From Roseibium sp. Sym1 (GTDB taxonomy: Bacteria; Pseudomonadota; Alphaproteobacteria; Rhizobiales; Stappiaceae), in the NCBI RefSeq assembly GCF_027359675.1, contig NZ_CP114788.1:96137-160136 (forward strand): a DNA stretch of 64,000 bases, given 5' to 3'. The notes below the pieces were generated by a model. The model made no database searches, was not told the DNA's origin, and saw only the letters and a list, made by a program, of their open reading frames with translations. Positions 35,988 to 53,934 of the stretch are shown piece after piece. The position numbers and the translations under genes were made by a program. Each line of letters opens with the position of its first letter. Within the stretch, counting starts at the first letter, position 1.

Positions 35988-36221
35988 ATGAAGCTAAGCG
36001 TTATTGCAGCGCTCTCGCCGCTATTGGTCGGGGGTTGCGCATCGACGGCATCCTTGCCGAGCCTTTCCGCCGGCTCCGGCCCGGAAGATCCGGGCACTGC
36101 CATTCATGCCCTATATCCGTCTTCTGTGACCGAAGGTTACACTGCGCGCGGTCCGGTCGATCCGGGTTCCTGGCGCAAACTCAATGACGACCAGGCTCCC
36201 AGCCGGGGAGGTGGTTCATGA
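35988..36221 (+). CDS. Small lipoprotein preceding the TolC-like gene
   Basis: A 77-residue protein with a lipobox VGGC (C17) and a Pro/Gly-rich mature part with no recognised domain. Its TGA overlaps the ATG of the TolC-like gene, so the two are co-translated. Such small lipoproteins often precede this type of outer-membrane factor in copper clusters. It may help insert or anchor the channel. Confidence 0.75.
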   Translation: MKLSVIAALSPLLVGGCASTASLPSLSAGSGPEDPGTAIHALYPSSVTEGYTARGPVDPGSWRKLNDDQAPSRGGGS

Positions 36222-37729
36222 GGGCTTTGGCTGTCAAACCAATCCTTTTCGCTTTAACTGCGAGCGTGCTGGCCGGATGTGTTTCCCCGGAGCAGATTGC
36301 CTCCTATTCCGAACAGCAGCCGGGATTTCAGCAAGTGTCTTCCGGCACCTCCTTACGATCACGCAACAAGGAAACCGTCTGGATCCAGAATGCGGATCAG
36401 GCGAAGGCCGTCTCTGACAGGGTCCGTACCCTCGTGCACAAGAAGACGATCAGCGCGGATACCGCCGTTCAGGTCGCGCTACTAAACAATCGCGGCCTTC
36501 AGGCTTCCTATGCGGCCCTTGGCATGAGCGCCGCGGAGGCCTGGCAGGAGACGATGCTGGAGAACCCGGTCGTTTCCGTCGGGTTCCTCGGTCTCGCTCA
36601 TCCGGAGATCGGCGGGCTGCGCACAATCGAAAGCACGATTGCGGCCAACCTCTTGTCGCTTGCGACCCAGAAACAGCGGGTCGACATCGCAGATACCAGG
36701 TTCCGTCAGGCTCAGGCAGTCGCGATCGGCGATACGCTTTCGCTTGCGGGTGAAACCAGGCGGGCCTGGATAGATGCCGTCGCTGCCTTCGAGACAGTTG
36801 CCTACCTCAATCAGGCGCAGGTTGCGGCGGATGCGGCATCGCAGCTTGCACAGAAACTGGGCGAGACCGGGGCAATGCCCAAGGCTGGGCAGGCACGTGA
36901 ACATGCCTTCTATTCCGAACTGACCGGCCAGAAGGCCGAAGCACGCCTGGCTGCGACCCTTGCAAAGGAACGGCTGACGCGCCTGATGGGGCTGTGGGGA
37001 CAGGACGTGCAGTATTTCGTGCCCGACAGCTTGCCGGGTCTGCCGAAGGCGCCGCGCGGCAATCCGTCGATCGAGGCCGATGCACTCCGAAACCGGATCG
37101 ATCTCCAGGTCGCGAAGCTTGAGCTCGAGGCCGTTGCCAAAAGCTACCGCCTGACGGAAGCAACCAGATACGTCACAGATCTGGAATTGATCGCGGGCGT
37201 TGAGGCAGAGAGGGAAGTCGAGACCGAGTATGAACTCGAAGGCGGCGAACTGGAGGAAAAGTCCAAGTCCAAGACCATCGTCACGCCCCAGATCGAGCTG
37301 GAATTTGCCATCCCGATCTTCGATAGCGGTAAGGCGAGACAGCGCAAGGCGGAATACGCCTACATGCAGGCGGCCAACAAGCTTGCCGAGAAGGCCGTGA
37401 ATATCCGGTCCGAAGCAAGGTCGGCTTACACTGCCTTCAAATCCTCACACGAGATCGCCCGCCACTATCGCGATGCGGTGCTGCCTCTGCGCAAGGCGGT
37501 CGAGGAAGAAGGTCTGCTGACCTACAACGGCATGATCACCAACACCTTCGATCTGCTTGCGGACACCAGAGCGCGTGTCGACACCCAGCTTCTTGCCGTC
37601 AACGCGCGCAAGAACTTCTGGCTCGCCGACGCCGACCTTGCGGCAGCTACCTTTGGCGGTGGAATGGGCGGGGGTACTGAAGGCTCCGAGCCGATGAGAA
37701 CCGCATCTGCGGAAGGGGGCGGACACTGA
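36218..37729 (+). CDS. TolC/CusC-family outer-membrane efflux lipoprotein
   Basis: A 503-residue outer-membrane factor with a lipobox SVLAGC (C21) and two TolC-type repeats rich in long helices; the second begins near PSIEADALRNRIDLQVAKLELEA. A charged acidic insertion (VETEYELEGGELEEKSKSK) lies near residue 330. No RND pump or membrane-fusion partner is encoded nearby, which is unusual for a CusC-like channel; it may work with a chromosomal pump, or export copper proteins. The stop overlaps the first ATG of the multicopper oxidase gene. Confidence 0.9.
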   Translation: MRALAVKPILFALTASVLAGCVSPEQIASYSEQQPGFQQVSSGTSLRSRNKETVWIQNADQAKAVSDRVRTLVHKKTISADTAVQVALLNNRGLQASYAALGMSAAEAWQETMLENPVVSVGFLGLAHPEIGGLRTIESTIAANLLSLATQKQRVDIADTRFRQAQAVAIGDTLSLAGETRRAWIDAVAAFETVAYLNQAQVAADAASQLAQKLGETGAMPKAGQAREHAFYSELTGQKAEARLAATLAKERLTRLMGLWGQDVQYFVPDSLPGLPKAPRGNPSIEADALRNRIDLQVAKLELEAVAKSYRLTEATRYVTDLELIAGVEAEREVETEYELEGGELEEKSKSKTIVTPQIELEFAIPIFDSGKARQRKAEYAYMQAANKLAEKAVNIRSEARSAYTAFKSSHEIARHYRDAVLPLRKAVEEEGLLTYNGMITNTFDLLADTRARVDTQLLAVNARKNFWLADADLAAATFGGGMGGGTEGSEPMRTASAEGGGH

Positions 37730-37755
37730 TGGGGCCACACGAAAGGACGATGACG

Positions 37756-39123
37756 ATGATGAACAGACGTCAACTTCTTGGAGCGGGCGCCGGCGGAGCC
37801 GCGCTCGTTTCCACCGCCGCCTGGGCGAAGACATCCAACATGGGGCTGCCGGAAGCCGCCCTCATGGACGGCCCGTCGACACAGGCGCCTAAGGCACCAG
37901 ACACGGGAGTGCCTTACAATCCCGTGGTTACCCTGAACGGTTGGACGCTGCCCTTCCGAATGAACAACGGCGTGAAGGAGTTCCATCTGGTTGCAGAACC
38001 TGTGGAGCGTGAACTGGCGGAGGGGATGACGGCCTATCTCTGGGGCTACAACGGCCAGTCAATCGGCCCGACCATAGAGGCGATCGAGGGAGACCGGGTC
38101 CGGATCTATGTGACCAACAAGCTGCCCGAGCACACATCGGTGCACTGGCACGGTCTCATTCTGCCATCGGGCATGGATGGCGTCGGTGGTCTGTCCCATC
38201 CCGGCATCCCGCCAGGAAAGACCTTCGTCTACGAGTTCGATCTCGTGAAATCCGGCACCTTCATGTACCATCCCCATGCCGACGAGATGGTCCAGATGGC
38301 CATGGGCATGATGGGGTTTTTCATCGTGCATCCGAAGGACCCGTCCTTCATGCCGGTGGACCGCGATTTCCTGATCATGCTCAACGCGTTTGATATCGAC
38401 CCGGGGTCCTATGTGCCAAAGGTCATGACCATGACCGACTTCAATCTGTGGACCTGGAACAGTCGGATCTTCCCTGACATCGATCCGCTGGTCGTGTCAA
38501 AGAATGACCGGGTGCGGGTGCGTGTTGGCAATCTCACCATGACCAACCACCCGATTCACATGCATGGTTACGACTTTGAGGTCACCTGCACCGACGGCGG
38601 TTGGGTGCGCCCGGAAGCCCGTTGGCCGGAAGTCTCAATCGACATCCCGGTTGGAGCGATGCGTGCCTATGAGTTCGATGCCGTGCATCTGGGCGACTGG
38701 GCGATCCACTGCCACAAGTCGCACCACACGATGAATGCCATGGGCCATGACGTTCCGACCTTCATCGGGGCGGACAAGTCCGCGCTCACCCACAAGATCC
38801 GTCTGGTCCAGCCTGAATATATGCCCATGGGCACCAACGGCATGGCGGAAATGGCGGAAATGGCCATGCCGATCCCCGACAACACCGTGCCGATGATGGC
38901 CGGGTGGGGACCGCATGGCCCGCTTGAAATGGGCGGGATGTTCTCGGTGGTGAAGGTTCGCGAGGGAATTTCCGCCGGCGATTACAGCGATCCCGGCTGG
39001 TACGAGAACCCTCCGGGCACCGAGGCCTGGGAATGGACCGGCGCCCTACCGGAACACGCAAAGGCAGAAAGTCCTGACACCCAACTCAATCCGGCAAACT
39101 CAATCGTAAGCGACCGCGGATGA
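37756..39123 (+). CDS. Multicopper oxidase (CopA-type periplasmic)
   Basis: A 455-residue multicopper oxidase with ligands HWHG (H130, H132), YHPHAD (H172, H174), HPIHMHG and HCHKSHH with an axial Met five residues later. The N-terminus has NRRQLLGAG, a Tat-type signal. Several ATGs are in frame at the front; I choose 37756, which is 8 bases after AAGGA. C-terminal MAEMAEMAMPIP is Met-rich, as in copper-resistance oxidases. It resembles but is distinct from the oxidase at 12369. Likely detoxifies periplasmic Cu(I). Confidence 0.93.
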   Translation: MMNRRQLLGAGAGGAALVSTAAWAKTSNMGLPEAALMDGPSTQAPKAPDTGVPYNPVVTLNGWTLPFRMNNGVKEFHLVAEPVERELAEGMTAYLWGYNGQSIGPTIEAIEGDRVRIYVTNKLPEHTSVHWHGLILPSGMDGVGGLSHPGIPPGKTFVYEFDLVKSGTFMYHPHADEMVQMAMGMMGFFIVHPKDPSFMPVDRDFLIMLNAFDIDPGSYVPKVMTMTDFNLWTWNSRIFPDIDPLVVSKNDRVRVRVGNLTMTNHPIHMHGYDFEVTCTDGGWVRPEARWPEVSIDIPVGAMRAYEFDAVHLGDWAIHCHKSHHTMNAMGHDVPTFIGADKSALTHKIRLVQPEYMPMGTNGMAEMAEMAMPIPDNTVPMMAGWGPHGPLEMGGMFSVVKVREGISAGDYSDPGWYENPPGTEAWEWTGALPEHAKAESPDTQLNPANSIVSDRG

Positions 39124-39206
39124 AGACCTTTAGCCAACTGGAAGTTTGCCAGATATGGCGACGCCTCGAAGTCTCGTCTGAAACAAACCTGAGAAAGGTA
39201 GATATT

Positions 39207-39731
39207 GTGAGAAAAATTTTGATGTCCACTACAGTCGCGCTTGCCCTCACGAGTGCCGCGTGGGCGGGAGGCAGTCATACGGGTGGCCACTCTGATGGCC
39301 ACGAAGGTTCCCACGGACATGTAGAAGAAATGGCCGTTGGTCAGCCCGGAGAGCGGAAGCGGGTGACCCGCGTCGTGCATGTCGAGCTGAAAGAAACCGA
39401 TGATGGAATGACCATCGAGCCAGGATCTCTCGTCGTAAAAAAAGGCGAAACGATCCTGTTCAGTATAAAGAATACGGGAGAAATCGAGCACGAATTTGTG
39501 CTTGATACTCTTGAGAAGAACCATGAGCACAAAGAACTCATGGCTAAATTCCCTGAAATGGAACACGACGATCCGAATTCGGTGAGGCTGGATTCCGGCG
39601 AACAGGCAGAAATTGTCTGGTCCTTCACCAACGCTGGAAAATTCGAGTTCGCTTGCCTCATTCCAGGTCACTACGAGTCCGGAATGCACGGTGAGATCAC
39701 CGTCAAAAAGAACATTCGTCCTTCAAGCTGA
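39207..39731 (+). CDS. Cupredoxin, periplasmic copper protein
   Basis: A 174-residue protein starting at a GTG with AAAGG 8 bases before it, so the signal peptide MRKILMSTTVALALTSAAWA is complete. A His-rich N-terminal linker (23-38) precedes a cupredoxin fold with type 1 ligands H95, C150, H155 and M160 (C-x4-H-x4-M). The family binds a single copper. A longer frame begins at an ATG overlapping the oxidase stop (39120), but it would bury the signal peptide. CusF follows. Confidence 0.93.
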   Translation: MRKILMSTTVALALTSAAWAGGSHTGGHSDGHEGSHGHVEEMAVGQPGERKRVTRVVHVELKETDDGMTIEPGSLVVKKGETILFSIKNTGEIEHEFVLDTLEKNHEHKELMAKFPEMEHDDPNSVRLDSGEQAEIVWSFTNAGKFEFACLIPGHYESGMHGEITVKKNIRPSS

Positions 39732-39754
39732 TACATCTCAACCAAGGTGCCAAG

Positions 39755-40042
39755 ATGAAACACATTCTCACTATCTCGCTCGCGGTTTTTCTGGCAGTTG
39801 CCGGCATAACCAGCACCTTCGCGACCGAATTCACAAAAGGTACGGTCAAGAAAATCGACCTCAAGGGTGGAAAAATTACCATCATTCATGAGGAGCTAAA
39901 GAACCTTGAAATGCCTGCAATGACCATGGTCTTCGTCGCGAAAGAAGAAGGCATGCTCTCTGATCTGTCAGAGGGCAGTCAAATCGAATTCATCGCGGAT
40001 AGGGTTGCGGGAAAACTGACTGTCATTGAAATAAAGAAATAG
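39755..40042 (+). CDS. CusF-type periplasmic copper-binding protein
   Basis: A 95-residue secreted protein with signal peptide and an OB-like fold. Metal ligands by position are H45, M56 and M58 (EMPAMTM). The tryptophan that caps the copper in E. coli CusF (W44) is replaced here by M53, a change also seen in other CusF-like proteins and likely to alter the site. It ends the copper operon that starts near 35530. Confidence 0.92.
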   Translation: MKHILTISLAVFLAVAGITSTFATEFTKGTVKKIDLKGGKITIIHEELKNLEMPAMTMVFVAKEEGMLSDLSEGSQIEFIADRVAGKLTVIEIKK

Positions 40043-41403: not shown

Positions 41404-41943
41404 GATGAGCCGTTGTCGGCGTCTTCGTTCGCGGTCTCTCATCGACCGCGCAAGCTTGCGCCTTGGCTGACAAATTGGTGGATTGGTTGTGTCGGCAGAG
41501 ACGGCTAAATTGTGGTGGCTGAACCGGACGATCAAGCTGCTGTAAAATGATCTGGTGAGTTTCGATGTGACTGCTTCTTTCGCACGGGGCAGTCGTATCA
41601 GCGACGGTTTAGTCGAGTTGCTTGGTGGGTTTATCCGGACAGATTTACCATGGTTGCGGAAGTTAGAGGTTCTGCGTGCTTCAATCGCTCACATGGGGTT
41701 GGTGATTGTATCGAAACGTATCCTTGACCTTTGCGACGGAGCAGGTCGTATTGCCCGCGATGAAATGTTTGCATCAGCCTGATCTCGAGGTGGAGCGGAA
41801 AGACTTGATTTAGAGATCTTTCGTCGCGCTGGCAGCACGAAATCACTTGTGCGCTGAGGTTAGAACGCCGGCATTAGTTGCCTCAATGAACGTATTCATG
41901 CCGCCGCATAGTTCTTAGGTGATTTGTTTTTTTGGAACTCAAA
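41404..41943. other. Intergenic region before the ScsB-like gene
   Basis: About 540 bases. Short frames on both strands (such as 41555-41782 and 41631-41846) have no ribosome site or recognisable domain. One half-site TTGTATC occurs at 41706-41712 without its partner at the expected distance. Nothing else identified; it may contain worn mobile-element DNA. Confidence 0.5.
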
Positions 41944-44094
41944 ATGTCGATGTTTAAGCAGCAATTCGGTGTGTTGACGGTCTTAACTGTTGTCGTTGGT
42001 CTAGGAACTATGTTCTTTGACAACGCGAGAGCTGCGACTTCCGAGACCATCTCGAAGCCAGCGGTAAGTGCCAGGCTTATCACGGTTCAAGATGGTGTTG
42101 CTGGTGGTATGTCTACGCTTTCTGCCGGCATTCAGATTGAACTGAATAAAGGTTGGAAGACGTATTGGCGCTCTCCGGGCGAGGTCGGTATTCCGCCTCA
42201 GGTTGATTGGTCTGCGTCTCAAAACGTAAAAAACGTTCGTTTCGAATGGCCGGCGCCTGAGCGTTTCACGGCATTTGGTATCGAAAACTTCGGATATAAA
42301 GGCGAGGTCGTTTTTCCACTTCAGATAAATTTGGAGCGACCTGGAGAAGCAACCCTCCTGTCGGCCAATGTCTCGCTTCTGGTCTGTTCAGATGTTTGTG
42401 TACCTGAAACTCTTCATTTATCCCTACTACTATCACCAGGAACAGGTATTGACCGCGTCTCGGGCTCCCTCATTGCCAAGTATGCTGACAAGATTCCGCT
42501 TGAAGGTGCCGAGACAAGTATCACGGAGGCCGCTGCATTTCTGGATGAGAACCGCACTGAGTTGGTTATCAACTTGGTGGCTACGGAGCTATTTCAAGAT
42601 CCAGATGTTTTTCCCGAACTGGGCTCCGGAATAGCGCTTGGAAAACCGGATATCCGTCTGGGAGACGGGAAAAAAAGGCTCTGGGCGCGTTTTCCCGTTC
42701 TCTCTTTTGAAGAAACTGCCTTTCGTCATACGTCACTAACAATTACGGACGGGCAGGAGCGTGCCGTCACCGTATCGCCAAAAATGGTATCAGCTGTTCC
42801 TGCGCCCCCATTCAGTATGGCGGCGCTTGCCCCTGGTGTCGATGAAGTGGCCTGGATTGCTTTGATCGCCTTCATTGGCGGATTGATCCTGAATGTCATG
42901 CCGTGCGTTTTGCCGGTTCTTTCGATTAAGTTGTCCTCGGCGTTGAAGCATCAGGGTCGGAATATGCAGTCAGTCAGAGGCGGCTTTCTTGCAGCTGCCT
43001 TCGGCGTAATGATTTTCGTTTGGGGACTTGCCGGCGCACTTTTTGCGTTGCAGCGCATGGGTATTGCTGTTGGTTGGGGGCTCCAGTTTCAAAATCCCGT
43101 CTTCCTTGCCTTCATGGCAGTCGTACTTGTCGTTTTCACCGCCAATCTGTTTGGTCTATTCGAAATCTCGCTTCCAACCTCCATACAAAGCTGGCTCTCT
43201 ACCAAAGGGACGGGCAGAGGATATTGGGCTGACTTTCTGACGGGGCTGTTCGGTGCTGTCCTGGCTACGCCCTGTTCGGCTCCGTTTCTGGGGACAGCCG
43301 TCGCCTTTGCGCTCGCTGGACGCGGGCTCGATATTCTAATCGTATTCACAAGTCTGGGATTGGGGTTGGCGGTACCCTATCTGGTCGTTGCGGCTTTACC
43401 TGGATTGGTCAACGTTCTTCCAAAGCCAGGACGATGGATGGTCTATCTGAAGTTTTTGCTCGGACTCATGCTGGGCGGAACAGTTCTTTGGTTGCTCTTG
43501 GTTCTGAAAGGTGTTGCAGGCTTCCCGGCATCAGTTGCCGTTTGGTTATTTGCGACTGCGCTGGTTTTCGTGCTGTCTTGGCGGCGGAGCGCATTTTGGA
43601 TCCGGCTGATCGCCGGTGGAACTCTGGCTAGCCTGGCGTTAGCCGCCCCCGTTGCGCTTTCACAGGCACAACAAAAGGCGCCTCACGAGCTTCCAGCTTT
43701 GAAATGGGTCCAATTCGACCGGGGAGAAATTGCACGTCTGGTTTCTCGGGGACAGGTGGTCTTTGTGGATGTGACGGCAGATTGGTGCATTACGTGTAAA
43801 GCAAACAAGGCTCTGGTCATCGAACGTGATCCTGTGCTTTCTGCTCTTGGAACGGAAAACGTTACCGCGATGCAGGCGGACTGGACGCGGCCCGACGAAG
43901 GGATTTCCCGCTACCTTGCGTCGTTCGGCCGATTTGGCATTCCCTTTAATGCAGTTTACGGACCGAGCGCTCCGCAAGGGATCGTGTTATCGGAACTGCT
44001 CACCTCGTCGGAGATCATAGATGCTCTCAGGATTGCGAAGGGTTCTTCTATCGGGTTTAATCTCCGTCAGAATGAAAGGTCTAATTCCAAGTAG
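41944..44094 (+). CDS. ScsB/DsbD-type transmembrane thiol-disulphide reductase
   Basis: A 716-residue protein with signal peptide, a periplasmic N-terminal domain (cysteines in VCSDVCVPE), about eight membrane helices with redox cysteines in VMPCVLPVLS and ATPCSAPFLG, and a C-terminal thioredoxin-like domain with WCITC. It passes electrons from cytoplasmic thioredoxin to the periplasm. The long N-terminal domain places it near ScsB, known for copper tolerance. I start at the ATG at 41944. It would supply reductant to the DsbA-like and CcmG proteins encoded nearby. Confidence 0.93.
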   Translation: MSMFKQQFGVLTVLTVVVGLGTMFFDNARAATSETISKPAVSARLITVQDGVAGGMSTLSAGIQIELNKGWKTYWRSPGEVGIPPQVDWSASQNVKNVRFEWPAPERFTAFGIENFGYKGEVVFPLQINLERPGEATLLSANVSLLVCSDVCVPETLHLSLLLSPGTGIDRVSGSLIAKYADKIPLEGAETSITEAAAFLDENRTELVINLVATELFQDPDVFPELGSGIALGKPDIRLGDGKKRLWARFPVLSFEETAFRHTSLTITDGQERAVTVSPKMVSAVPAPPFSMAALAPGVDEVAWIALIAFIGGLILNVMPCVLPVLSIKLSSALKHQGRNMQSVRGGFLAAAFGVMIFVWGLAGALFALQRMGIAVGWGLQFQNPVFLAFMAVVLVVFTANLFGLFEISLPTSIQSWLSTKGTGRGYWADFLTGLFGAVLATPCSAPFLGTAVAFALAGRGLDILIVFTSLGLGLAVPYLVVAALPGLVNVLPKPGRWMVYLKFLLGLMLGGTVLWLLLVLKGVAGFPASVAVWLFATALVFVLSWRRSAFWIRLIAGGTLASLALAAPVALSQAQQKAPHELPALKWVQFDRGEIARLVSRGQVVFVDVTADWCITCKANKALVIERDPVLSALGTENVTAMQADWTRPDEGISRYLASFGRFGIPFNAVYGPSAPQGIVLSELLTSSEIIDALRIAKGSSIGFNLRQNERSNSK

Positions 44095-44198
44095 ACATAG
44101 TAGTTTTCAGTCTGCATTGCCTGTCGATTAGAAATTATATTCGGATTTGATCGTAGATCTTGTTGTGCGAATGAGCGATCTACAGAATTGTGTCGCGT

Positions 44199-44235
44199 TG
44201 TATCAAAAGCCTCAATTGCGACGAGCCGATACAAT
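44199..44235. promoter_or_regulatory. TTGTATC-N23-GATACAA operator upstream of lgt
   Basis: TTGTATC (44199-44205) and its exact inverse GATACAA (44229-44235) are 23 bases apart. The identical half-sites with the identical spacing occur at 47486-47522 before the response-regulator gene. The centres are 30 bp apart (three helical turns). The right half overlaps TACAAT, a possible -10. Probably bound by the same regulator, perhaps the two-component system itself. Confidence 0.7.
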
Positions 44236-44360
44236 CAGAATAGTGATGACGAGGCGTTTCTATGTTTTCGATAGTCTTACTCGAGAGCTTACGAGTTTGA
44301 AGGTGTATTGGACGATCCTGCCTGACACACGAGACAATAACACTCGAAACGGAGAGCGAA

Positions 44361-45263
44361 ATGCAGATTGCGGCGATTCCCTTCCCGGAAATCAGCCCGG
44401 AACTTTTTTCGATTGAAATCGGCACCTTCAGATTTGCGCTACGTTGGTACGCTCTTGCTTATATTGCCGGTATCCTGATCGGCTGGCGTCTATGCGTTTC
44501 CTTGATCCGTAACGCCAAGCTTTGGCGACCCGGGAATCCCCCCATGACATCGGCGCAATTCGAAGATCTCATGATTTGGATCGTGCTCGGTGTCATACTG
44601 GGCGGGCGCCTTGGCTTCATCTTATTTTACCAGCCTGCATTCTATCTGCAGAACCCGCTTGAAATTCTGAAAGTGTGGCAAGGTGGAATGTCATTTCACG
44701 GCGGCTTTCTGGGCGTATCGATAGCAGTGCTCGTCTACTGCATCCGCTATCGCTTCCCGTTTTTCTCGATCACTGACCTTTTGGCGCTAGCCGCCCCTAT
44801 CGGATTGTTTTTCGGCCGAGTTGCAAACTTCATAAATAATGAACTTTGGGGACGGCCGACGGAGGTTTGGTGGGGTGTCGTTTTTCCGGGAGAACTGGCA
44901 CAGAGTTGTCCAGGCATAGAAGGTCTTTGCGCCCGTCACCCTTCCCAGCTTTACGAGGCTGTTCTCGAAGGCATCGTTCTGGGCGGATTGTTGCTGTATC
45001 TGGCTTTGAAACACGGCTCGTTGAAACGGCCTGGGGCCCTAACGGGCGTATTTCTGACCGGCTACGGAATCGCAAGGAGCTTGGTTGAACTTTTCCGGCA
45101 ACCGGACGCGCAATTTATCACTCTTGGAAATCCGATCGGGCACGTTCTACATTTCGAAACTTGGGGCGTTACCATGGGACAATTGCTGTCACTACCAATG
45201 GTCATGGTTGGTCTTGGTTTAATCTGTATGCGGCCTCGTGGGCATCATGCGTCAGTCTCCTAG
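44361..45263 (+). CDS. lgt: Prolipoprotein diacylglyceryl transferase
   Basis: A 300-residue inner-membrane enzyme with about seven helices and the Lgt signature [23 protein letters not shown] near residue 113 and the HPSQLYEA motif. It transfers diacylglyceryl from phosphatidylglycerol to the lipobox cysteine of lipoproteins. GGAG lies before the ATG. An accessory copy beside genes for several lipoproteins (TolC-like, L,D-transpeptidase, 36-kb small lipoprotein) may serve them, but the chromosome must also carry one. Confidence 0.95.
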
Positions 45264-45425
45264 AGAAGGAGAAGAACCCGAGCGTCTACCTGTCAATTCC
45301 GTGTAACCGTCCGGTTCTGTAAAACAGCTTCTTGCTTCCCGGAAAATAGTCCATCCGGTTTCTCAACGTCGATCAGCTTGGCTTAGACCCACCGAGAGCG
45401 GGCTCACAACTCAAAGAGACCTAAA

Positions 45426-46490
45426 ATGAAACGTAATACTGTTCTTCGTCTCCTGACAGCATCATCCCTCATTACACTTTCCATCGGAGTTGCCTTTTCG
45501 CAAACGGTCTACATTCCCGAGGGTAGTTCGAATTCCGTGTCGGTTGTGGATGTAAAAAGCGGATCTGTGGTGGGTCGGTTCACAAATGTCGAAGCTGCGC
45601 ACGGGCTTTCGGTGGTAAAACACAAAAAAACTCTTGTTGCCGGTAGTCTTTCGGAAATTGGCGATGAAGCTGTTGATGAAAGCAAACCCGATACAATTAC
45701 GAAAGAGGATCATGCAGCGCATCATTCATCCTCAAAGAAACAGGCAGGCACTCCGGTCGGGGCAGGCAAAAGCCTATTGAGCTTTCTGAATTTGGAGACC
45801 GGCGAGGTCGTGCGAAAGGTCGAAGTCCCAGGGGCTGTGCATCACGTTGCGGTTTCTCCCGATGAACGCTTCGCTGTTGCAACTCACCCGTCAAACGATG
45901 GCATATCGATCATCGATCTGTCCACTTTTGAACTAAAGACTTTTGTTCCAACAGGTGGCAACCCAAACTACCTGGCATTTGGTGGTGAGCCGGGTTCGGT
46001 CTACGTGTCAAATGCCGGCAACGGAACAATCAGTGAAGTCGATCTGGACCGTGGCATCGTTCGGCGAAACATGCTGGTCGGCCAGTCTCCGGAACATATG
46101 GCTGCAGATAGGTCATCTGGGAAACTTTATGTTGCCGACCCCACTGTCGGACAAGTGTTTGAATTGGCACTCAATACAGGCAACATTCAGCGTACCTTTG
46201 ATATTGGCGGCGATATTCACGGTCTTGATCTGACGAACGACCAACAACGATTGCTTGTCAGCGTTACCGACGAGGACAAGATGGCGTCAGTCGATCTGGT
46301 CTCCGGAGACATTATCACAGTTTCCTTGTCACCTGCCCCCTATCATTTGACCACTGTAAGGGGGACGGATCGCGCCTTCGTTTCGTCAAGAGCCGAGCCC
46401 TTTGTCTGGGTTGTCGATCTGTCCGATCTGAGTATCGCAGATAAGATTGCCATTAAGGGTGAAGGCCATCAGATGTTCAGTTTGCGCTGA
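45426..46490 (+). CDS. YVTN-type beta-propeller protein, periplasmic
   Basis: A 354-residue protein with signal peptide and a seven-bladed-type repeat pattern (VYIPEGSSNSVSVVD, VAVSPDERFAVA, VYVSNAGNGTISEVD, LYVADPTVGQVFE, LLVSVTDEDKMASVD). A His-rich insert (DHAAHHSSSKK) lies in the first third and could bind metal. It resembles the propeller domain of cytochrome d1-like and YncE proteins, but no haem-binding residue is assigned. A monohaem cytochrome c follows, perhaps its partner. Confidence 0.88.
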   Translation: MKRNTVLRLLTASSLITLSIGVAFSQTVYIPEGSSNSVSVVDVKSGSVVGRFTNVEAAHGLSVVKHKKTLVAGSLSEIGDEAVDESKPDTITKEDHAAHHSSSKKQAGTPVGAGKSLLSFLNLETGEVVRKVEVPGAVHHVAVSPDERFAVATHPSNDGISIIDLSTFELKTFVPTGGNPNYLAFGGEPGSVYVSNAGNGTISEVDLDRGIVRRNMLVGQSPEHMAADRSSGKLYVADPTVGQVFELALNTGNIQRTFDIGGDIHGLDLTNDQQRLLVSVTDEDKMASVDLVSGDIITVSLSPAPYHLTTVRGTDRAFVSSRAEPFVWVVDLSDLSIADKIAIKGEGHQMFSLR

Positions 46491-46646
46491 ACGGATGAGC
46501 TTTCAACAAAAAGTCGGATGAATGATTTCGTAGTCTCTTCTCTACTGTCGAAAAAAGGGGGGCGGGAGCTCAAACGGCAAACATATGCGATATCGTCATT
46601 GTGGAAAAACACGTCTCCAGCATTAACGGAGACACGGAGATTTGGA

Positions 46647-47078
46647 ATGAAAATATCTGAAAACCTGCCTAAATTTTTCGTTCTCGGCTTTTTTGGCCTT
46701 GGAATAGGCTTGTTCGTCTTCAGGGCCTTTCAGCCTGAAGCCGGGGTGAATAGTCTAACCGTACAGCTGCCAGCATTTTCAGGTGAAGCTGAAGCTGGAG
46801 AGGTACTTTTCAATGACAACTGCGCCGCATGTCATGGAGTGAATGCGACAGGAACGAAAAGCGGTCCGCCACTGCTTAATGACATCTACAACCCCGGACA
46901 TCATCCGGACGAATCCTTTTATTCTGCTGCAAAGAAAGGCGTCAGGCGACATCATTGGTCCTTTGGCAACATGCCGAGTCAACCCCAGGTCACGCAAGAC
47001 GAAGTGACTTTGATCATACGTTACGTCCGCGAACTGCAAACGGCGAATGGGATCACATACAAACCGCATACCATGTGA
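46647..47078 (+). CDS. Membrane-anchored c-type cytochrome
   Basis: A 143-residue cytochrome with an N-terminal anchor (residues 10-27) and haem site CAACH (C59, C62, H63). It closely matches the cytochrome at 6533-6970 along the full length (for example DIYNPGHH.DESF and ANGITY.PHTM). I start at the ATG at 46647 with GGAGA before it; the frame is open to 46518 without a convincing start. It lies downstream of the beta-propeller gene. Confidence 0.92.
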   Translation: MKISENLPKFFVLGFFGLGIGLFVFRAFQPEAGVNSLTVQLPAFSGEAEAGEVLFNDNCAACHGVNATGTKSGPPLLNDIYNPGHHPDESFYSAAKKGVRRHHWSFGNMPSQPQVTQDEVTLIIRYVRELQTANGITYKPHTM

Positions 47079-47482
47079 CGCATACTCGATCATGTTGCAA
47101 CGCTAGCGAGATTGGCGTTGATGGACGCACTGCAATCCATCTACGCCTGTCCGGGCATCAAACCGCAATCCCTATTTTTTGCGTTTCAGCGACACCGGTA
47201 GCCATTAATGCTCCTTAGCATTTTTTAGGTGCCATGTTGCTCTGAGCGCAGCTAACGCTGACCTGTCATCTCGCGCAATCTCCCCGCCGCGGCATGAACA
47301 AAGCGACTAAAGTTCCTTTAATCAAACGGGGTGTCGAGCCGGCATGAGCCGCGTATGCTGCCGTCCCTAAGAGAAGTAACAACGCCGCAGATCTAGAAGA
47401 AATTTGCCTCCTTTGTGTCTGTATCCCAATCGTCCAGAAAAACATTGATAGCAAAACATAGATCTGGCATGCGGCGCGAGCT
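47079..47482. other. Intergenic region upstream of the two-component operon
   Basis: About 400 bases. A minus-strand frame (47266-47454) begins with a stretch like a signal peptide (SAALLLLLGTAAYAAHA) but is only 62 residues and has no support around it, so I leave it unannotated. At the right end lies the inverted repeat 47483-47525. Confidence 0.5.
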
Positions 47483-47525
47483 CGATTGTATCGGGCAGTA
47501 GTAATTTGTCATTTTGATACAATCG
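47483..47525. promoter_or_regulatory. 10-bp inverted repeat operator before the response-regulator gene
   Basis: CGATTGTATC (47483-47492) and GATACAATCG (47516-47525) are perfect inverses separated by 23 bases, ending 51 bases before the start codon. The core TTGTATC-N23-GATACAA recurs at 44199-44235 before lgt. It suits a dimeric or tetrameric regulator bound on one face of the DNA; autoregulation by this response regulator is the simplest hypothesis. Confidence 0.75.
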
Positions 47526-47576
47526 GAGACAAAACGGCCTCTGACGAGCTGAGCGATTATCCAGTAAAACAAGACC

Positions 47577-48299
47577 ATGTCAGAAGCAGCGCATATTCTG
47601 GTCGTCGATGACCATCAGCAAATTCGGGATAGCGTAACGTGCTTTCTCGAAAAGAATGGTCTTAGAGCATCATCAGCAAAAGATGCCCGCGAAATGGATG
47701 TAAAGTTGTCCAATGGCCATTATGATTTGATCGTGTTGGACGTGATGATGCCTGGAGAAAGCGGATTGTCCGTATGCCAGCGAATTTCAACAACACGTAA
47801 ATTGCCGATCATCCTTCTGACTGCTCTTGGCGAAGATACCGACCGGATTGTCGGACTTGAAATCGGCGCGGACGACTATCTTGCCAAGCCGTTCAATCCG
47901 AGAGAGCTTCTCGCACGCATTAAGGCTATTCTTCGACGGGCAAACCAGCAGGAGAAACATGGAGGTGGGTTCGCCGGCAAAAAAATCCGCTTCGCGCATC
48001 TGATCTTGGATTCTGATCGTCGATCGTTGGTTGACACTTCAGGTGGCGAAACACCACTGACGACAGCGGACTACAAGCTTCTGATCGTGTTGCTGGAAAG
48101 AGCACGTATCGTGCTCAGCAGAGAGCAGTTGCTTGACCTGACAGCTGGAAAGTCCGCGGGCCCGCTTGACAGAATAATTGACAATCAGATCAGCAGACTA
48201 AGACGTAAGATTGAGCCCGATGTGCTTCGACCGAGCATAATAACAACCGTTCGATACGGCGGGTATTGCCTGTCCGCCGACGTCGAGGTGCTCGAATGA
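47577..48299 (+). CDS. OmpR-family response regulator
   Basis: A 240-residue regulator with a receiver domain (acidic pocket VVDD, phospho-acceptor D55 in LIVLDVMMPG, and the KPF loop) and a winged-helix DNA-binding domain ending with VRYGGYCL. It overlaps the histidine kinase by four bases (ATGA). The operator with 23-base spacing lies 51 bases upstream, so it probably controls itself and, through the matching site, lgt. The signal is unknown. Confidence 0.95.
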   Translation: MSEAAHILVVDDHQQIRDSVTCFLEKNGLRASSAKDAREMDVKLSNGHYDLIVLDVMMPGESGLSVCQRISTTRKLPIILLTALGEDTDRIVGLEIGADDYLAKPFNPRELLARIKAILRRANQQEKHGGGFAGKKIRFAHLILDSDRRSLVDTSGGETPLTTADYKLLIVLLERARIVLSREQLLDLTAGKSAGPLDRIIDNQISRLRRKIEPDVLRPSIITTVRYGGYCLSADVEVLE

Positions 48300-49741
48300 T
48301 AAAGTGGCCGTTCAACACACTGATCGTTCAACTGACATTGTTGGTGATTGCCGCTTTGACCGCGGCCCAGGTGATTAGTCTTTGGTTGTTTGCAGATGAA
48401 AGAAGTCTCGCGATTCGGGCGGCGCTTGGATTTGAGGCAGCCGGAAGAGCGGCAAATGTTGCGCGGCTGTTGGAAAGCACACCGTCAGAGTTGCGGCCAG
48501 CGATTTTGGGAGCTGCAGATTCTCCCTTGGTTCGATTCGATGTTTCAACGAAGCCAGAGGTATCTGTTAGTGATTATTCAGACGGTGGTGTCATTGAAGC
48601 GCGTGTTCGCAAGCTTCTGGGAGACGGTTACAGTAAAGACATTCGAGTAGAGCTCCGGCAGATTGAAGGCAAGATACTTCCGCTGCCGCATTTGTCGGCA
48701 GAAATGGCCGAAATGCACAAGGCTATGATGCGGGGAGAGCTGTCGGCGGTTGAAATGAATCTGTCGATCGCCCTATCTGAAGGTCAATGGCTGAATGTGG
48801 GTACGCGCTTTGAACGCCCGCCACTGCAGTGGCCGTTTTTCGCCACACTGACCTTCGCTCTGACGGCTGCCCTAATTTTGATGGTCGTCTTCTGGTTTTT
48901 GCTCGCTCGCTTGACCGGGCCCCTGAGAAGACTGGTCTCTGCTGCCGACAAGTTGGGGCGCGGTGAAGAGGTCTCCGAACTTCCGGTTGCCGGTCCGTTG
49001 GAAGTGAAAAATCTTACCAGGGCGTTTAACCAAATGCAGGATAGGTTGACCCGGTTTGTCGCCGATCGGACGAAATTGCTGGCATCTCTGGGCCATGATT
49101 TGAAGTCCCCCCTCACAGCGATGCGCGTCCGCGCGGAGATGGTTGACGACGAAGAAACACGTACAAGCCTGGTCGCCTGTGTGGAGGAAATGCAATCTAT
49201 GGTCGAATCAACCATAACCTTCGCACGAGGCCTCATAGGCTCGGAGAACACACAACTTATCGAAGTCGGAGAGACTCTAAGTTCGCTGCAAAAAAACGTT
49301 GTGGAGCCTTTCAGTTTCGAAAAGGACCGCGAGGTTCACATCCGTGTCCGTCCCTTGGCCTTTAGGCGCGCTTTACGAAATCTAATTGAAAACGCTCTCC
49401 GTTACGGCGGAAACGCCAGAGTGAACTACGAGGTTCAGGACCAAACTCTGCTGGTCAGTATTGAAGACGACGGGCCGGGCATACCTGAAGTCCAGCTGGA
49501 ACAGGTTTTCGAACCGTTCTTCAGGCTAGAGGAATCAAGGTCACTTGAAACCGGCGGTCACGGCCTTGGCTTGTCCATTTCTCGGACCATCGCGCGTTCT
49601 CATGGTGGAGACATCTCGCTTTCAAACAGAGAAGGCAAAGGCTTGGTTGCCCAGTTAAGAATTCCGCTTTCCGAAGATTCTCTTACGCCAGAGCTGAAGG
49701 AAAGTGCAGGCAATGCGGGATTCGTAAAAACAGGATGCTGA
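48296..49741 (+). CDS. Sensor histidine kinase
   Basis: A 481-residue kinase. Two membrane helices (about 10-33 and 185-210) bracket a periplasmic sensor domain, then a HAMP segment, HisKA with the phosphorylated H267 (LGHDLKSPLTAM) and a HATPase domain with NLIENALRYG, DDGPGIPE and GHGLGLSIS. All catalytic motifs are intact. It is co-translated with the response regulator and the ccm genes follow after one base, so the system may be co-expressed with cytochrome c maturation. Confidence 0.95.
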   Translation: MIKWPFNTLIVQLTLLVIAALTAAQVISLWLFADERSLAIRAALGFEAAGRAANVARLLESTPSELRPAILGAADSPLVRFDVSTKPEVSVSDYSDGGVIEARVRKLLGDGYSKDIRVELRQIEGKILPLPHLSAEMAEMHKAMMRGELSAVEMNLSIALSEGQWLNVGTRFERPPLQWPFFATLTFALTAALILMVVFWFLLARLTGPLRRLVSAADKLGRGEEVSELPVAGPLEVKNLTRAFNQMQDRLTRFVADRTKLLASLGHDLKSPLTAMRVRAEMVDDEETRTSLVACVEEMQSMVESTITFARGLIGSENTQLIEVGETLSSLQKNVVEPFSFEKDREVHIRVRPLAFRRALRNLIENALRYGGNARVNYEVQDQTLLVSIEDDGPGIPEVQLEQVFEPFFRLEESRSLETGGHGLGLSISRTIARSHGGDISLSNREGKGLVAQLRIPLSEDSLTPELKESAGNAGFVKTGC

Positions 49742-49742
49742 C

Positions 49743-51740
49743 ATGACACCTGAAATTGGTCATTTTGCGCTGGCCTTGGCGCTGGCACTTGCACTCGTCC
49801 AGAGCATCGTGCCGATCGTAGGCGCTGTGCGGGGAAATCTGATATGGATGCGGACAGCCCGCTCACTCTCAATTGGTCAGGTTATCTTCACATTAATGGC
49901 CTTTGGCGCCTTGATGCAGGCATTCATCGTCAGTGATTTCACTGTTCGCAATGTTGCAGAAAACTCCCATTCACTTAAACCACTCCTGTTTAAAATTGCG
50001 GGTACCTGGGGTAGTCACGAAGGTTCGCTTCTTCTGTGGGTCCTTATCCTGACAATATTTGGGGCAGGTGTCTCTCTCTTCGGCAGAAATATTCCTGAAG
50101 CCACGAAGGCTCGTGTACTTGCTGTTCAGGCTTGGATCAGTGTCGGGTTTCTCTCCTTTTTGCTCCTGACGTCTAATCCGTTTGAACGGATATTTCCTCC
50201 ACCCAGCGATGGAAACGACCTAAACCCTCTCCTCCAGGACGTGGGCCTCGCGATGCACCCGCCGCTGCTTTATTTCGGATATGTCGGCTTCTCTATTGTC
50301 TTTTCATTCGCTGTTGCAGCTTTGCTTGAAGGCCGGATTGACGTTGTTTGGGCACGTTGGGTGCGTCCTTGGACGCTCGCTGCTTGGGTTAGCCTCACCG
50401 CTGGCATCGCGCTGGGGTCCTGGTGGGCATATTACGAGCTAGGGTGGGGTGGTTGGTGGTTTTGGGACCCGGTTGAAAACGTAAGTTTTATGCCTTGGTT
50501 GCTTGGTACTGCATTGCTACACTCCGCTATTGTTACCGAGAAGCGCGATGCCTTCAAAAGCTGGACAGTACTGCTGGCAATATTGACGTTTTCACTCTCG
50601 CTGCTTGGAACATTCATCGTCCGCTCTGGCCTTTTGACATCGGTTCATGCTTTCGCTGTTGATCCCGAACGAGGGCTCTACATTCTGATGCTACTTGCAT
50701 TGTCCATCGGAGGTTCGCTGCTGCTTTTTGCTTGGCGGGCGCCTACCATGGAACCCGGTGGGCTTTTTAAGCCCATCAGCAGAGAGGCTGGTTTACTTCT
50801 GAATAACTTAATCTTGGCAGCTGCCACCGGGATTGTTTTGTTTGGAACTCTTTACCCCCTGTTTCTAGAGGCAGTTAGTGGTGAAAAGGTCTCTGTCGGG
50901 CCTCCCTTTTTCAATTCCGCTTTTATTCCGATGATGCTGCCACTCGTTTTTTTCATGGGGCTGGGGCCGTTTCTTTCATGGAAACGAGCGGATCTTGCAG
51001 GAGTAGTGCAGAGGCTTAAATTCGTTGCACTCATTTGCGTAGCTGCAACGCTGATCGTCTGGTACGTGGCGCGCGGCGGTCCGGTTCTGGCATATGCAAG
51101 CCTTCTTCTCGCATTCTGGCTCGCCTTTGCGACAGTGCGGGAATGGATGTCGCGGATTCGCCTTTTCGAAGTGCCGTTCGCGGTGGCGATGCGGAGAGCC
51201 TACGGGCTCCCTAGAGCTGCTCACGGAATGACTGCTGCACATTTGGGGCTTGCGATCGCGATGTTCGGATTTATCGGTTCGAGCGCGTGGAAGTCTGAAG
51301 AAGTCGTCTTCGTCAAACCCGGTTCTTCAGTTTCTATTGCGGGCTTTGAGGTGTCGTTCCTGGGCGTGGATAAAATTCGCGGACCAAATTACATCGCTAA
51401 CCGTGGCGTCCTTCTTGTCGAGAGAAATGGCCAGTTCGTGACAACATTATATCCGGAACGCAGAAACTACCCAGTTGCCCAAAGTTCTACGACTGAATCT
51501 GCAATTCGCTCTACTCTCGCGGGCGACCTTTATGCGTCGATTGCAGAGCCCGCGGCAGAACAGGCGGGTACGTCGGACACCTGGACTCTCCGGATACTGT
51601 ACGAGCCGTTGGTCAATTTCATCTGGCTGGGGGCGTTGATGCTGGTCCTTGGTGGTTGTTTGTCATTGACTGACAGACGCCTGCGCATTGGAGCTCCAAA
51701 GAAAACCAAGATCGCGTGTGAAGTCGTTCCAGCGGAGTGA
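49743..51740 (+). CDS. ccmF: Haem lyase CcmF (CycK)
   Basis: A full-length 665-residue membrane protein with about fifteen helices and the haem-handling WWD motif (WGGWWFWDPVENVSFMPWL). It joins haem from CcmE to apocytochrome c in system I. It begins one base after the kinase stop. The operon has ccmFGHI but not ccmABCDE, so haem delivery by CcmE must come from elsewhere. Confidence 0.96.
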   Translation: MTPEIGHFALALALALALVQSIVPIVGAVRGNLIWMRTARSLSIGQVIFTLMAFGALMQAFIVSDFTVRNVAENSHSLKPLLFKIAGTWGSHEGSLLLWVLILTIFGAGVSLFGRNIPEATKARVLAVQAWISVGFLSFLLLTSNPFERIFPPPSDGNDLNPLLQDVGLAMHPPLLYFGYVGFSIVFSFAVAALLEGRIDVVWARWVRPWTLAAWVSLTAGIALGSWWAYYELGWGGWWFWDPVENVSFMPWLLGTALLHSAIVTEKRDAFKSWTVLLAILTFSLSLLGTFIVRSGLLTSVHAFAVDPERGLYILMLLALSIGGSLLLFAWRAPTMEPGGLFKPISREAGLLLNNLILAAATGIVLFGTLYPLFLEAVSGEKVSVGPPFFNSAFIPMMLPLVFFMGLGPFLSWKRADLAGVVQRLKFVALICVAATLIVWYVARGGPVLAYASLLLAFWLAFATVREWMSRIRLFEVPFAVAMRRAYGLPRAAHGMTAAHLGLAIAMFGFIGSSAWKSEEVVFVKPGSSVSIAGFEVSFLGVDKIRGPNYIANRGVLLVERNGQFVTTLYPERRNYPVAQSSTTESAIRSTLAGDLYASIAEPAAEQAGTSDTWTLRILYEPLVNFIWLGALMLVLGGCLSLTDRRLRIGAPKKTKIACEVVPAE

Positions 51741-51743
51741 ACA

Positions 51744-52307
51744 ATGAACCGATTACTTGCAATTGTCCCCTTGCTGATTGCCTTAATTGTTGGCGCTTTT
51801 TTTCTCTGGGGACTGAATCCGGAACGCGATCCGAATGAGATCCCGTCTGTTCTGATATCTCAACCTGCTCCCGAGTTTGCGCTTGAACCTGTCGCGGGAA
51901 TATCAGTTCCGGGTCTCTCGCGAGAAGATTTACTGAACAATGAAAATCCTGTGGTCGTGAACGTCTTCGCATCATGGTGTGTTCCATGTCGTGCGGAGCA
52001 TGCGGTTCTCACAAACCTGGTTGATCGTGACGGAATTCAGTTATTCGGCATCAATTACAAAGACAAACCGGAAGACGCAGCGCGATGGCTGGCTGAGTTG
52101 GGAAACCCCTATAAGCGGATTGGTGCTGACACGACAGGTCGCGCGGGGATTGAGTGGGGAATATCCGGTGTTCCCGAAACCTTTGTCGTTGGGTCGGATG
52201 GTATTGTTCTGTTCCGGTACGTTGGTCCGATCGTCGGAGAGGTGGCGATAAGCAAATTCCGGGCGGCACTGGTTGAAGCCGGTGTGCTCAGGGTGGGGAA
52301 TAGCTGA
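51744..52307 (+). CDS. ccmG: Thiol-disulphide protein CcmG (DsbE/CycY)
   Basis: A 187-residue membrane-anchored thioredoxin-like protein with active site WCVPC (C79, C82) and the GVPETF cis-proline loop. It reduces the cysteines of apocytochromes before haem attachment, taking electrons from a CcdA/DsbD-type protein such as that at 41944 or 18335. Confidence 0.95.
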   Translation: MNRLLAIVPLLIALIVGAFFLWGLNPERDPNEIPSVLISQPAPEFALEPVAGISVPGLSREDLLNNENPVVVNVFASWCVPCRAEHAVLTNLVDRDGIQLFGINYKDKPEDAARWLAELGNPYKRIGADTTGRAGIEWGISGVPETFVVGSDGIVLFRYVGPIVGEVAISKFRAALVEAGVLRVGNS

Positions 52308-52783
52308 TGCGGTTTATTCCGGTTCTCACACTGCTCTTTGTTTTTTCAACGGCCTTCGCAATGGCAGTTGAGCCTGACGAAAAATTATCCGACCCCGTTC
52401 TGGAAGCAAGAGCTAGAACGATTTCTAAGGAACTGCGATGCGTAGTCTGCCAGAACCAGGATATCGACAGTTCGAACGCAGGTGTCGCGCGCGACCTGCG
52501 CCTATTGGTACGCGAACGGCTTAAAGCCGGAGACAGCAACCAAGAGGTGATTGCGTTCATCCAGGCACGTTACGGCGACTATGTTTTACTGCGGCCTCCA
52601 TTCAAGCCAACGACATATGCCCTCTGGCTCTCACCGCTAGTTTTGGTGATGATAATTCTTGCATTTGGGTGGCGAATACTTACGAGGTTCAGTCGAAAAA
52701 ATTCGTTGAATACGCTGACCGTTGAAGAGGAAGCGCTGGTTGAACGCTTCGTTGCGGACCACAGGAATGGAGGCAAGAAATGA
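52307..52783 (+). CDS. ccmH: Cytochrome c maturation protein CcmH (CycL)
   Basis: A 158-residue protein with signal peptide, the redox motif RCVVCQNQ (C45, C48) and a single C-terminal helix. It presents apocytochrome c to CcmF. Start and stop codons overlap with both neighbours. Confidence 0.95.
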   Translation: MRFIPVLTLLFVFSTAFAMAVEPDEKLSDPVLEARARTISKELRCVVCQNQDIDSSNAGVARDLRLLVRERLKAGDSNQEVIAFIQARYGDYVLLRPPFKPTTYALWLSPLVLVMIILAFGWRILTRFSRKNSLNTLTVEEEALVERFVADHRNGGKK

Positions 52784-53934
52784 TCTGGCTCACTATCGCA
52801 GCACTGTCGTTGTTGGCCGTTTTGTTTGTTCTTGCACCACTTCTTTGGAAGAAAAGGACTGAAGTTACAGATGAACAAGTAACGCCTTCAATTCTTGTTG
52901 ACCAACTCGATGAGTTGGAAAGAGACAGCGAATCTGGCCTCATCTCCGAGAGTGAGGCAGATGCTGCCAGGCACGAAATCAAGCGGCGAATAGTCTCCGC
53001 AGCCCGTCGCAGCAAAAAAACGCGATCAGAGCCTGTCTCAAAGGGAAGCTTGGGACTCGTGTTTTGTGCGATCTTGGTGCCGGCAATTGCAGTTGGGTAC
53101 TACGTGGTTAGGGGATCGCCAGCGCTTCCCGGAATTGCGTATGCTGACCGCAATGGAGAACGGGAGGAAGCCGCGAAGGTTGCAGCACTGGTTGAACGAC
53201 TGCTTTTACGGTTACAACGAGATCCGAACGGCGGCGACGCCGAAGGCTGGCTGCTTCTCGGTCAAACCTATTTGCGGTTGGACCGTCTTGAAGAGGCTGT
53301 GCAAGCCTTGGAGGAGGTCTCTAACCGCGACGGCAACACGTCGGCAAGCTGGTCAATGCTCGCTGAAGCATTGGTCAGAATTGAACAAGGCATAGTTACT
53401 CCCCGTGCTGAGCGCGCGATTGAAAAAGCTTTGGAAATGAATCCGGAAAATCCGGCAGCAGTTTTCTATAAGGCTCTTGCCCTGTCGCAATCGGGCCAGG
53501 ACCAGGATGCCTACGAACTGCTTGTTACTAGGTTAGAATTGGCTCGTGCTTATGAACCATGGATGAACCCGCTTGTCGAACAAGCAAACAGAGTTGGCAA
53601 GTCCGAGGGCAAGCCGCGCCTTACAGTTTCTGATTTTGTTGACGTCAACGAAGTCGGCCCAACAGCTGCAGATATTATAGCCGCAACGGAATTGAGTGAC
53701 GAAGACCGCAGTGATTTTATCAGGTCCATGGTCGAACGCCTGGCCGGTCGGCTCGAGAGCGAGCCAGGCGATCTCGATGGCTGGCTGAGACTTGCAAATG
53801 CATACACGGTTCTTGGTGAACGCGAACAAGCTATAGGAGCTTTTGAACGAGCAAATGCGTTGCTTTCCAGTACGTCCTCGAACGACCCGAGGCGATTAAA
53901 GGTCAAAAAGGCGCTTGCGGATCTCAAGGGATGA
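52780..53934 (+). CDS. ccmI: Cytochrome c maturation protein CcmI (CycH)
   Basis: A 384-residue protein: N-terminal two-helix membrane part (residues 2-20 and 90-108), then a periplasmic TPR region (LLLGQTYLRLDRLEEAVQALEE and further repeats). It chaperones apocytochrome c for CcmH/F. It ends the operon begun at the response-regulator gene, and is convergent with the trb operon. Confidence 0.93.
   Translation: MIWLTIAALSLLAVLFVLAPLLWKKRTEVTDEQVTPSILVDQLDELERDSESGLISESEADAARHEIKRRIVSAARRSKKTRSEPVSKGSLGLVFCAILVPAIAVGYYVVRGSPALPGIAYADRNGEREEAAKVAALVERLLLRLQRDPNGGDAEGWLLLGQTYLRLDRLEEAVQALEEVSNRDGNTSASWSMLAEALVRIEQGIVTPRAERAIEKALEMNPENPAAVFYKALALSQSGQDQDAYELLVTRLELARAYEPWMNPLVEQANRVGKSEGKPRLTVSDFVDVNEVGPTAADIIAATELSDEDRSDFIRSMVERLAGRLESEPGDLDGWLRLANAYTVLGEREQAIGAFERANALLSSTSSNDPRRLKVKKALADLKG

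Follow-up and report, generated by a model that had tools for sequence, protein, structure and literature searches.

The stretch of DNA analysed here (the window; 64,000 nucleotides of Roseibium sp. Sym1, contig NZ_CP114788.1, positions 96,137 to 160,136) makes up the right-hand part, to the very end, of a plasmid-like contig of 160,136 bp. It carries two related sites, putative operators 1 and 2, located in front of an lgt gene and of a two-component system (TCS), respectively. The genes concerned are all on the forward strand. The TCS comprises an OmpR-family response regulator (47577-48299; domains Response_reg and Trans_reg_C), the proposed binder of both sites, and a sensor histidine kinase (48296-49741; HAMP, HisKA and HATPase_c). 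Directly downstream are the cytochrome c maturation genes ccmF, ccmG/dsbE, ccmH and ccmI (49743-53934), followed by trb conjugation genes. The first gene after operator 1 is lgt (44361-45263), encoding prolipoprotein diacylglyceryl transferase; further downstream are genes for a YncE-like β-propeller (45426-46490; its YNCE score of 25.7 bits narrowly misses the Pfam cut-off, 27.1) and a cytochrome c (46647-47078). Second copies of lgt and ccmF, 54% and 55% identical, are found on the 6.69-Mb contig C1 of the same genome. Before the sites, the gene order is TolC-like, CopA-like oxidase, cupredoxin, CusF, cyclase-domain protein and DsbD-like protein, the last (41947-44094) being the gene before operator 1. 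The TolC-like OEP protein, the CopA-like multicopper oxidase, the cupredoxin and CusF (36218-40042) are the copper-handling genes of the same cluster. The copper_res_A match reaches 169.0 bits, under its cut-off of 478.95, and the naming of these genes also draws on the annotation of the matching Roseibium aggregatum plasmid NZ_CP045629.1. The regulator is 100% identical on two plasmids of R. aggregatum; on one of these, NZ_CP045629.1, both sites recur and the genes are arranged in the same order.

The initial annotation described the two sites as a 37-bp palindrome, TTGTATC-N23-GATACAA. Both are exact matches, at 47486-47522 and at 44198-44234, the latter having been placed one base off, at 44199-44235. 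The 10-bp arms CGATTGTATC/GATACAATCG at 47483-47525 and the right-side bases common to both sites, GATACAATC, are also present in the sequence. Comparison of the sites across relatives showed, however, that these genuine arms belong to a larger, 47-bp array, in which one arm is an outer half-site and the other an inner one. Two more half-sites, F2 and R2, each displaced by 10 bp, had been overlooked, as had the fact that the two sites point in opposite directions. The array is laid out as F1-n3-F2-n13-R1-n3-R2, that is, four 7-bp half-sites of consensus TTGT(A/C)NC forming two opposed tandem direct-repeat pairs. The period is 10 bp inside each pair, as for OmpR/PhoB regulators, and the gap between pairs is 13 bp, or 14 in a few relatives. 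With half-site starts at 0, 10, 30 and 40 bp, all four would lie on one helix face.

Operator 2, in the response-regulator promoter (47486-47532, forward strand), reads TTGTATC GGG CAGTAGT (13) GATACAA TCG GAGACAA, with F1 at 47486-47492, a weak F2 at 47496-47502, the gap at 47503-47515, R1 at 47516-47522 and R2 at 47526-47532. It was delineated from the sequence, by an array scan (0/1000 shuffles) and by alignment with 16 homologous sites. Operator 1, upstream of lgt (44188-44234, reverse strand), is reversed with respect to operator 2 and was found by profile R1, a sequence-only profile built from 17 regulator-upstream sites among which it does not figure. On the minus strand it reads TTGTATC GGC TCGTCGC (13) GATACAA CGC GACACAA: F1 at 44228-44234, F2 at 44218-44224, gap at 44205-44217, R1 at 44198-44204 and R2 at 44188-44194 (TTGTGTC on the plus strand). 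The site on plasmid pDSHI03 of D. shibae, TTGTATC CAT CTGTAGC (13) GATACAA ACG GCTACAA, illustrates the same design, a tandem 10-bp repeat followed by the same tandem reversed. A half-site score was derived from the relatives' sites, after some of those sites had been seen. Operators 1 and 2 contain four pairs, and three of these are the best-scoring tandem pairs in the window: R1-R2 of operator 2 ranks first and the pairs of operator 1 second and third, while F1-F2 of operator 2 scores below the cut-off of 10.5. At this cut-off the window holds 11 tandem pairs, whereas 20 shuffles gave 5.6 on average and never more than 10.

The exact pattern TTGTATC-N23-GATACAA occurs twice in the window and in none of 100 dinucleotide shuffles of it. 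When the whole genome (7,257,095 bp) is searched with gaps of 10 to 40, the TTGTATC/GATACAA pattern appears only at the two window sites, and the reversed control pattern nowhere. The claim that such a pair is unlikely by chance thus holds, and the genome-wide search proposed to check it reveals no excess at random positions. The proposed search of related genomes gave a divided answer: the array is conserved before homologous regulators, as described below, but the bare pattern is not enriched. Among 87 family genomes (gap 19-27), 9 sites are found in 7 genomes, with a gap of 23 in 7 sites and of 20 in the other 2, versus 7 sites in 6 genomes for the reversed control over all gaps. Counts of the bare 7+7 pattern were therefore rejected as proof, and the signal resides in the gap of 23, the gene context and the bases shared in the interior. 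In 385 genomes of the class (gap 20-26), matches occur in 15, including Sym1 itself, and control matches in 6; since the 15 sites outside Sym1 are scattered over gaps 20 (5), 22 (4), 23 (2), 24 (2) and 25 (2), these matches look like background. The gap-23 match of genome G036 (locus L007) and the gap-20 matches of G023 and G025 (L005 and L006) were taken as chance. None of these three loci has a homologue of 15 window genes within ~1.5 kb, which is also true of the real site of G061 (L009); profile R1 detects neither L006 nor L007 and matches L005 only partially (E-value, E, of 5e-4), as against 6e-9 for L009.

The regulator family is widespread, with 87 plasmid records matching at E ≤ 1e-84 and 86 of the 87 family genomes at E ≤ 1e-50. 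For 30 homologues, 200 bp of upstream DNA were scanned against plain letter shuffles. Eighteen of the 26 homologues with at least 60% identity exhibit the n13 array (0/1000 shuffles reaching it; L144 has a weak F pair), and three more (L123, L124, L125) exhibit an n14 array with both tandem pairs intact (0/300 shuffles). The array lies at -88 to -112 from the regulator start in these 18 n13 cases, and at -120 to -175 in paralogues. Among the four homologues below 60% identity, the n13 array is found in L046 and L051 and not in L047 and L050. A second sample, 80 genome-contig loci partly overlapping the 30 homologues, was evaluated with significance set at no more than 4/200 shuffles. A significant n13 array is the best one in 6/7 loci of at least 60% identity, 4/9 at 50-60% and 2/64 below 50%; 12 loci below 50% are significant with other gaps, which indicates the background level.

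The test carrying most weight uses 26 presumed chromosomal paralogues of the family (L014-L039), which are 50-56% identical and had not had their upstream DNA inspected beforehand. With the gap left free between 5 and 24, 24 of them choose 13 and 2 choose 14; being related to each other, they do not amount to 26 independent events. Their array scores range from 17.7 to 22.4, and 6 of 520 shuffled stretches round to at least 19. Most of these paralogues lack the TTGTATC/GATACAA symmetry and keep the four-part geometry. The paralogue of Sym1 itself, on C1 (51% identity), has GTGTCGC CAA GTGTCGC (13) GACACAC TTT GTTACAA upstream and an EF-hand gene in divergent orientation. In 7 of 20 plasmid loci (L123, L124, L141, L143, L149, L152, L153; L143 by Pfam), an EF-hand/calcium-binding gene diverges from the regulator gene ~170-180 bp away, and the array lies between the two, where it could act on both promoters.

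Searching the Sym1 genome with profile R1 yields five matches up to E 10, of which operators 1 and 2 are the only full sites at E < 0.1. Operator 2, a training site, scores 1.7e-8 and operator 1, which is not, 2.0e-7; the remaining matches are operator 1 read from the opposite strand (0.35) and two partial ones, located on C1 (0.46) and before the DsbD-like gene (0.83). Over 31 sources, operator 1 reaches E 1.6e-8. The last partial match (41705-41740, reverse strand) coincides with a possible single tandem pair, TTGTATC-GAA-ACGTATC (41706-41722, forward strand), upstream of the DsbD-like gene. This weak candidate scores 11.0, a value like that of a pair inside ccmI, and was discarded as a third operator.

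Across the 87 family genomes, profile R1 gives 26 matches in 19 genomes at E ≤ 0.01. Eight belong to the cassette of the four genomes with a plasmid-type regulator (G000, G061, G021, G017) and 12, from 11 genomes, precede the 50%-type paralogue, G061 being in both groups. Several matches outside the training set have an assigned target: they are located directly between DsbD and the propeller (G021 and G017), before the gene of a P-type ATPase that carries a heavy-metal-binding domain (G061), before a YncE-like propeller in Martelella (L143), and before EF-hand, DUF302, lgt and copper-ATPase genes on D. shibae pDSHI03, with a sister match on pDSHI01. Another precedes a DMT transporter gene on two Roseovarius plasmids, and weaker matches precede VTT genes (L142, E 1.6e-5; L144, 1.3e-3) and ccmF (L044, 4e-3; L146, 1e-2). 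Of 20 whole plasmid records, 18 match at E ≤ 0.05, a count in which only the extra sites are informative because nine records supplied training sites and W01 and W03 carry an identical one.

The regulator consists of a receiver domain and a winged-helix Trans_reg_C domain, and is of the OmpR/PhoB type according to domain search. The tandem half-sites, with a period of ~10-11 bp and a position before putatively regulated genes, agree at the sequence level with OmpR/PhoB tandem sites. The closest PDB match of the DNA-binding domain alone is E. coli OmpR (E 7e-11), that of the full-length protein is RegX3, and the best NCBIfam model is OmpR (229.8 bits). A recognition-helix motif, (I/V)DNQ(I/V)SRLR, is present in 45 of 50 homologues (IDVQISRLR in E. 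coli OmpR) and differs in L049, L054, L071, L055 and L062. The OmpR-like DNA-binding domain, the conserved helix and the tandem nature of published OmpR-family sites make this regulator the likely binder. It reaches none of the curated cut-offs for OmpR (PRK09468; 229.8 versus 331 bits), TIGR01387 (CzcR/SilR/CopR; 134.2 versus 279.2 bits) and RstA (NF007977; 141.2 versus 330 bits), and by this measure is not an orthologue of OmpR, RstA or CopR/CzcR.

Tandem OmpR-type sites are already known, and CopR, CusR and CzcR are heavy-metal response regulators acting in two-component control of copper genes. The window resembles the latter in associating a TCS with copper genes and differs from them by its TIGR01387 score. 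No opposed double tandems with a fixed gap common to paralogues turned up in literature searches confined to open-licence papers. The RstA box of E. coli and Klebsiella, TACATNTNGTTACA, comes close: its tandem TACA cores are 10 bp apart and are bound by a dimer of the OmpR/PhoB family (PMC4117788). The R1-R2 pair of relatives, for example GATACAAAGCGTTACAA in L041, fits this box closely, and GATACAATCGGAGACAA of the window less well; however, the RstA box is a single tandem pair, whereas the array has a second, facing pair across 13-14 bp. For OmpR itself, both head-to-tail and head-to-head binding are reported (PMC4117788). E. coli OmpR gives the closest PDB match of the DNA-binding domain and the best NCBIfam model, but the window regulator is encoded in the company of ccm, lgt and copper genes. 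In Rhodobacter sphaeroides, CenKR likewise involves an alphaproteobacterial OmpR-family regulator with direct-repeat half-sites 10 bp apart, but its motif, TGA-N8-TGA, is a single direct repeat and its regulon an essential one of envelope and cell division (PMC9275681). The array consensus does not match this printed motif. Finally, Dshi_6153-6154 is a TCS reported on a 102-kb RepABC plasmid, rich in heavy-metal genes, of D. shibae, a marine member of the Rhodobacterales; this plasmid reportedly leaves copper, cobalt and zinc resistance unchanged and slightly raises silver resistance, and the available part of the source names neither operator nor target genes (PMC9426580). A 102-kb D. shibae plasmid, NZ_CP097553.1, not necessarily the one of that study, encodes a homologous regulator (62.9% identity), and profile R1 gave no match on its record. 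A possible link to PetR/PetP was dropped, PMC10141476 describing a cyanobacterial CopY-type PetR.

Taken together, both sites are very probably operators of the response regulator 47577-48299, which would autoregulate the TCS-ccmFGHI genes and control lgt, propeller and cytochrome c genes in the copper-gene cluster of a Roseibium plasmid. The proposal of the initial annotation, a shared operator and a small regulon of this regulator, is thereby well supported by conservation before homologous regulators, matches at non-training targets and genome-wide rarity, although the unit it described was incomplete. On an envelope or metal (copper or silver) signal, the kinase would phosphorylate the regulator. 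Each tandem pair would take one head-to-tail dimer, and two dimers may bind the array together, meeting across the 13-14 bp, with four subunits on one helix face. Operator 2 would then mediate autoregulation and operator 1 the control of lgt, propeller and cytochrome c, and in several relatives an array between divergent EF-hand and regulator genes may serve both. As a guess, target activation is likelier than repression.

Several observations weigh against this assignment. F2 of operator 2 (CAGTAGT) is weak. Among the 26 homologues of at least 60% identity, five have neither an n13 nor an n14 array (free-gap choices: L142, 19; L150, 18; L147, 7; L044, 19; L146, 19), although by eye L142, L044, L146 and L150 retain an R1-R2-like pair. 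Five of the nine loci at 50-60% identity are without a significant n13 array. The array of the C1 paralogue was missed by profile R1 and came to light only when the gaps scanned were restricted to 12-14. L049, L054 and L071 have a significant n13 array without the helix motif. Six of the 26 family matches of profile R1 have no assigned target. It is only the gene company that points to copper as the signal, and the 102-kb D. shibae plasmid is reported to leave copper resistance unchanged (PMC9426580).

Among the alternatives, the binding of the array by another regulator, controlling the two-component genes and their neighbours, is improbable. The neighbourhood on two other plasmids does include a Crp/Fnr-type regulator or CueR, but the array accompanies this very regulator clade on plasmids and presumed chromosomes, the half-site and its 10-bp period are consistent with recognition of the OmpR/RstA type, and the protein's recognition helix shows good conservation. 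A slightly fainter chance attaches to the 37-bp palindrome as originally drawn, bound by a single symmetric dimer. The exact 7+7 arms with a gap of 23 recur at both window sites and in G017, G021 and G061. Yet interior bases are conserved as well, and so are the half-sites at +10 and +40; a gap of 24 occurs with both tandem pairs intact (L123-L125), and the 50-56% paralogues mostly dispense with arm symmetry while keeping the four parts. Least credible of all is that the sites are no operators but a transcript hairpin, a recombination site or another mobile-element repeat: inverted arms could pair in RNA and the contig is plasmid-like, but the narrow range of distances to the regulator start among the 18 n13 cases of at least 60% identity, the 10-bp tandem register and the presence of only two copies in the genome oppose it.

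Beyond assigning both operators to the regulator, a broader scenario may be put forward tentatively, with chances slightly below even. The rigid n3-n13-n3 four-half-site operator would be ancestral to an undescribed proteobacterial module combining EF-hand and OmpR-EnvZ-like proteins. Marine plasmids would have copied it, putting spare lgt and ccmFGHI copies, along with copper genes, under one stress-responsive tetramer switch, and the drift of plasmid half-sites (TTGTATC) from chromosomal ones (such as GTGTCGC) would limit cross-talk. The assignment of both operators to the regulator, if right, would provide a testable operator for a widespread regulator family, for which no described operator turned up in the searches, and a clean system for two OmpR-family dimers sharing one array. 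Furthermore, plasmid second copies of lgt and of cytochrome c maturation genes would answer to a stress regulator and not to housekeeping control.

The right half had been suggested to overlap a -10 element, TACAAT, which comparison does not support: relatives have GTTACAC, GTTACAT, GATACTT or GTTACGT at the same place. A consensus promoter scan of 44090-47600, which was uninformative, yields no forward-strand promoter; its four matches (3.2 on average in shuffles) are confined to the reverse strand. ATGACA-16-TACAAT, one of the four, is located inside operator 2 and points in the direction opposite to the regulator gene. A possible copper box, with a AAAATGACAA-type half in the operator 2 spacer, was rejected, being not conserved in aligned relatives.

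A few additional features were observed. The window has its own EF-hand gene, at 33127-33687 on the reverse strand, ~14 kb from the regulator and without a recognisable array, the counterpart of the divergent neighbour in several relatives. In most paralogues checked (a sample of L014-L039, and L186, L188, L193), a further TTGTCGC-like half-site is found ~33 bp before F1, towards the divergent gene. It is often followed by a ACTATGCC- or ACTACACC-like stretch and is probably part of the divergent gene's promoter. The six family matches without assigned target (G086:C3:620796, G073:C8:656483, G080:C1:709769, G074:C1:684661, G025:C18:52499 and G021:C8:104203) are possible further regulon members. 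In G017 (L003, 1591-3036), regulator and kinase each match in two overlapping frames, the frameshifts reflecting decay or assembly error. CP070277.1 (PLSDB), filed as a Dysgonomonadaceae bacterium, gives the same regulator match values as Martelella pMM259 (68.8%, 317 bits) and is possibly mislabelled. Lastly, Rhizobium loci L062, L064, L065, L068 and L077 harbor arrays such as TTGTATC-AGA-CTGTATC (13) GCTACAA, located ~1.3-1.4 kb before a 47% identical regulator and away from its start, which suggest related operators.

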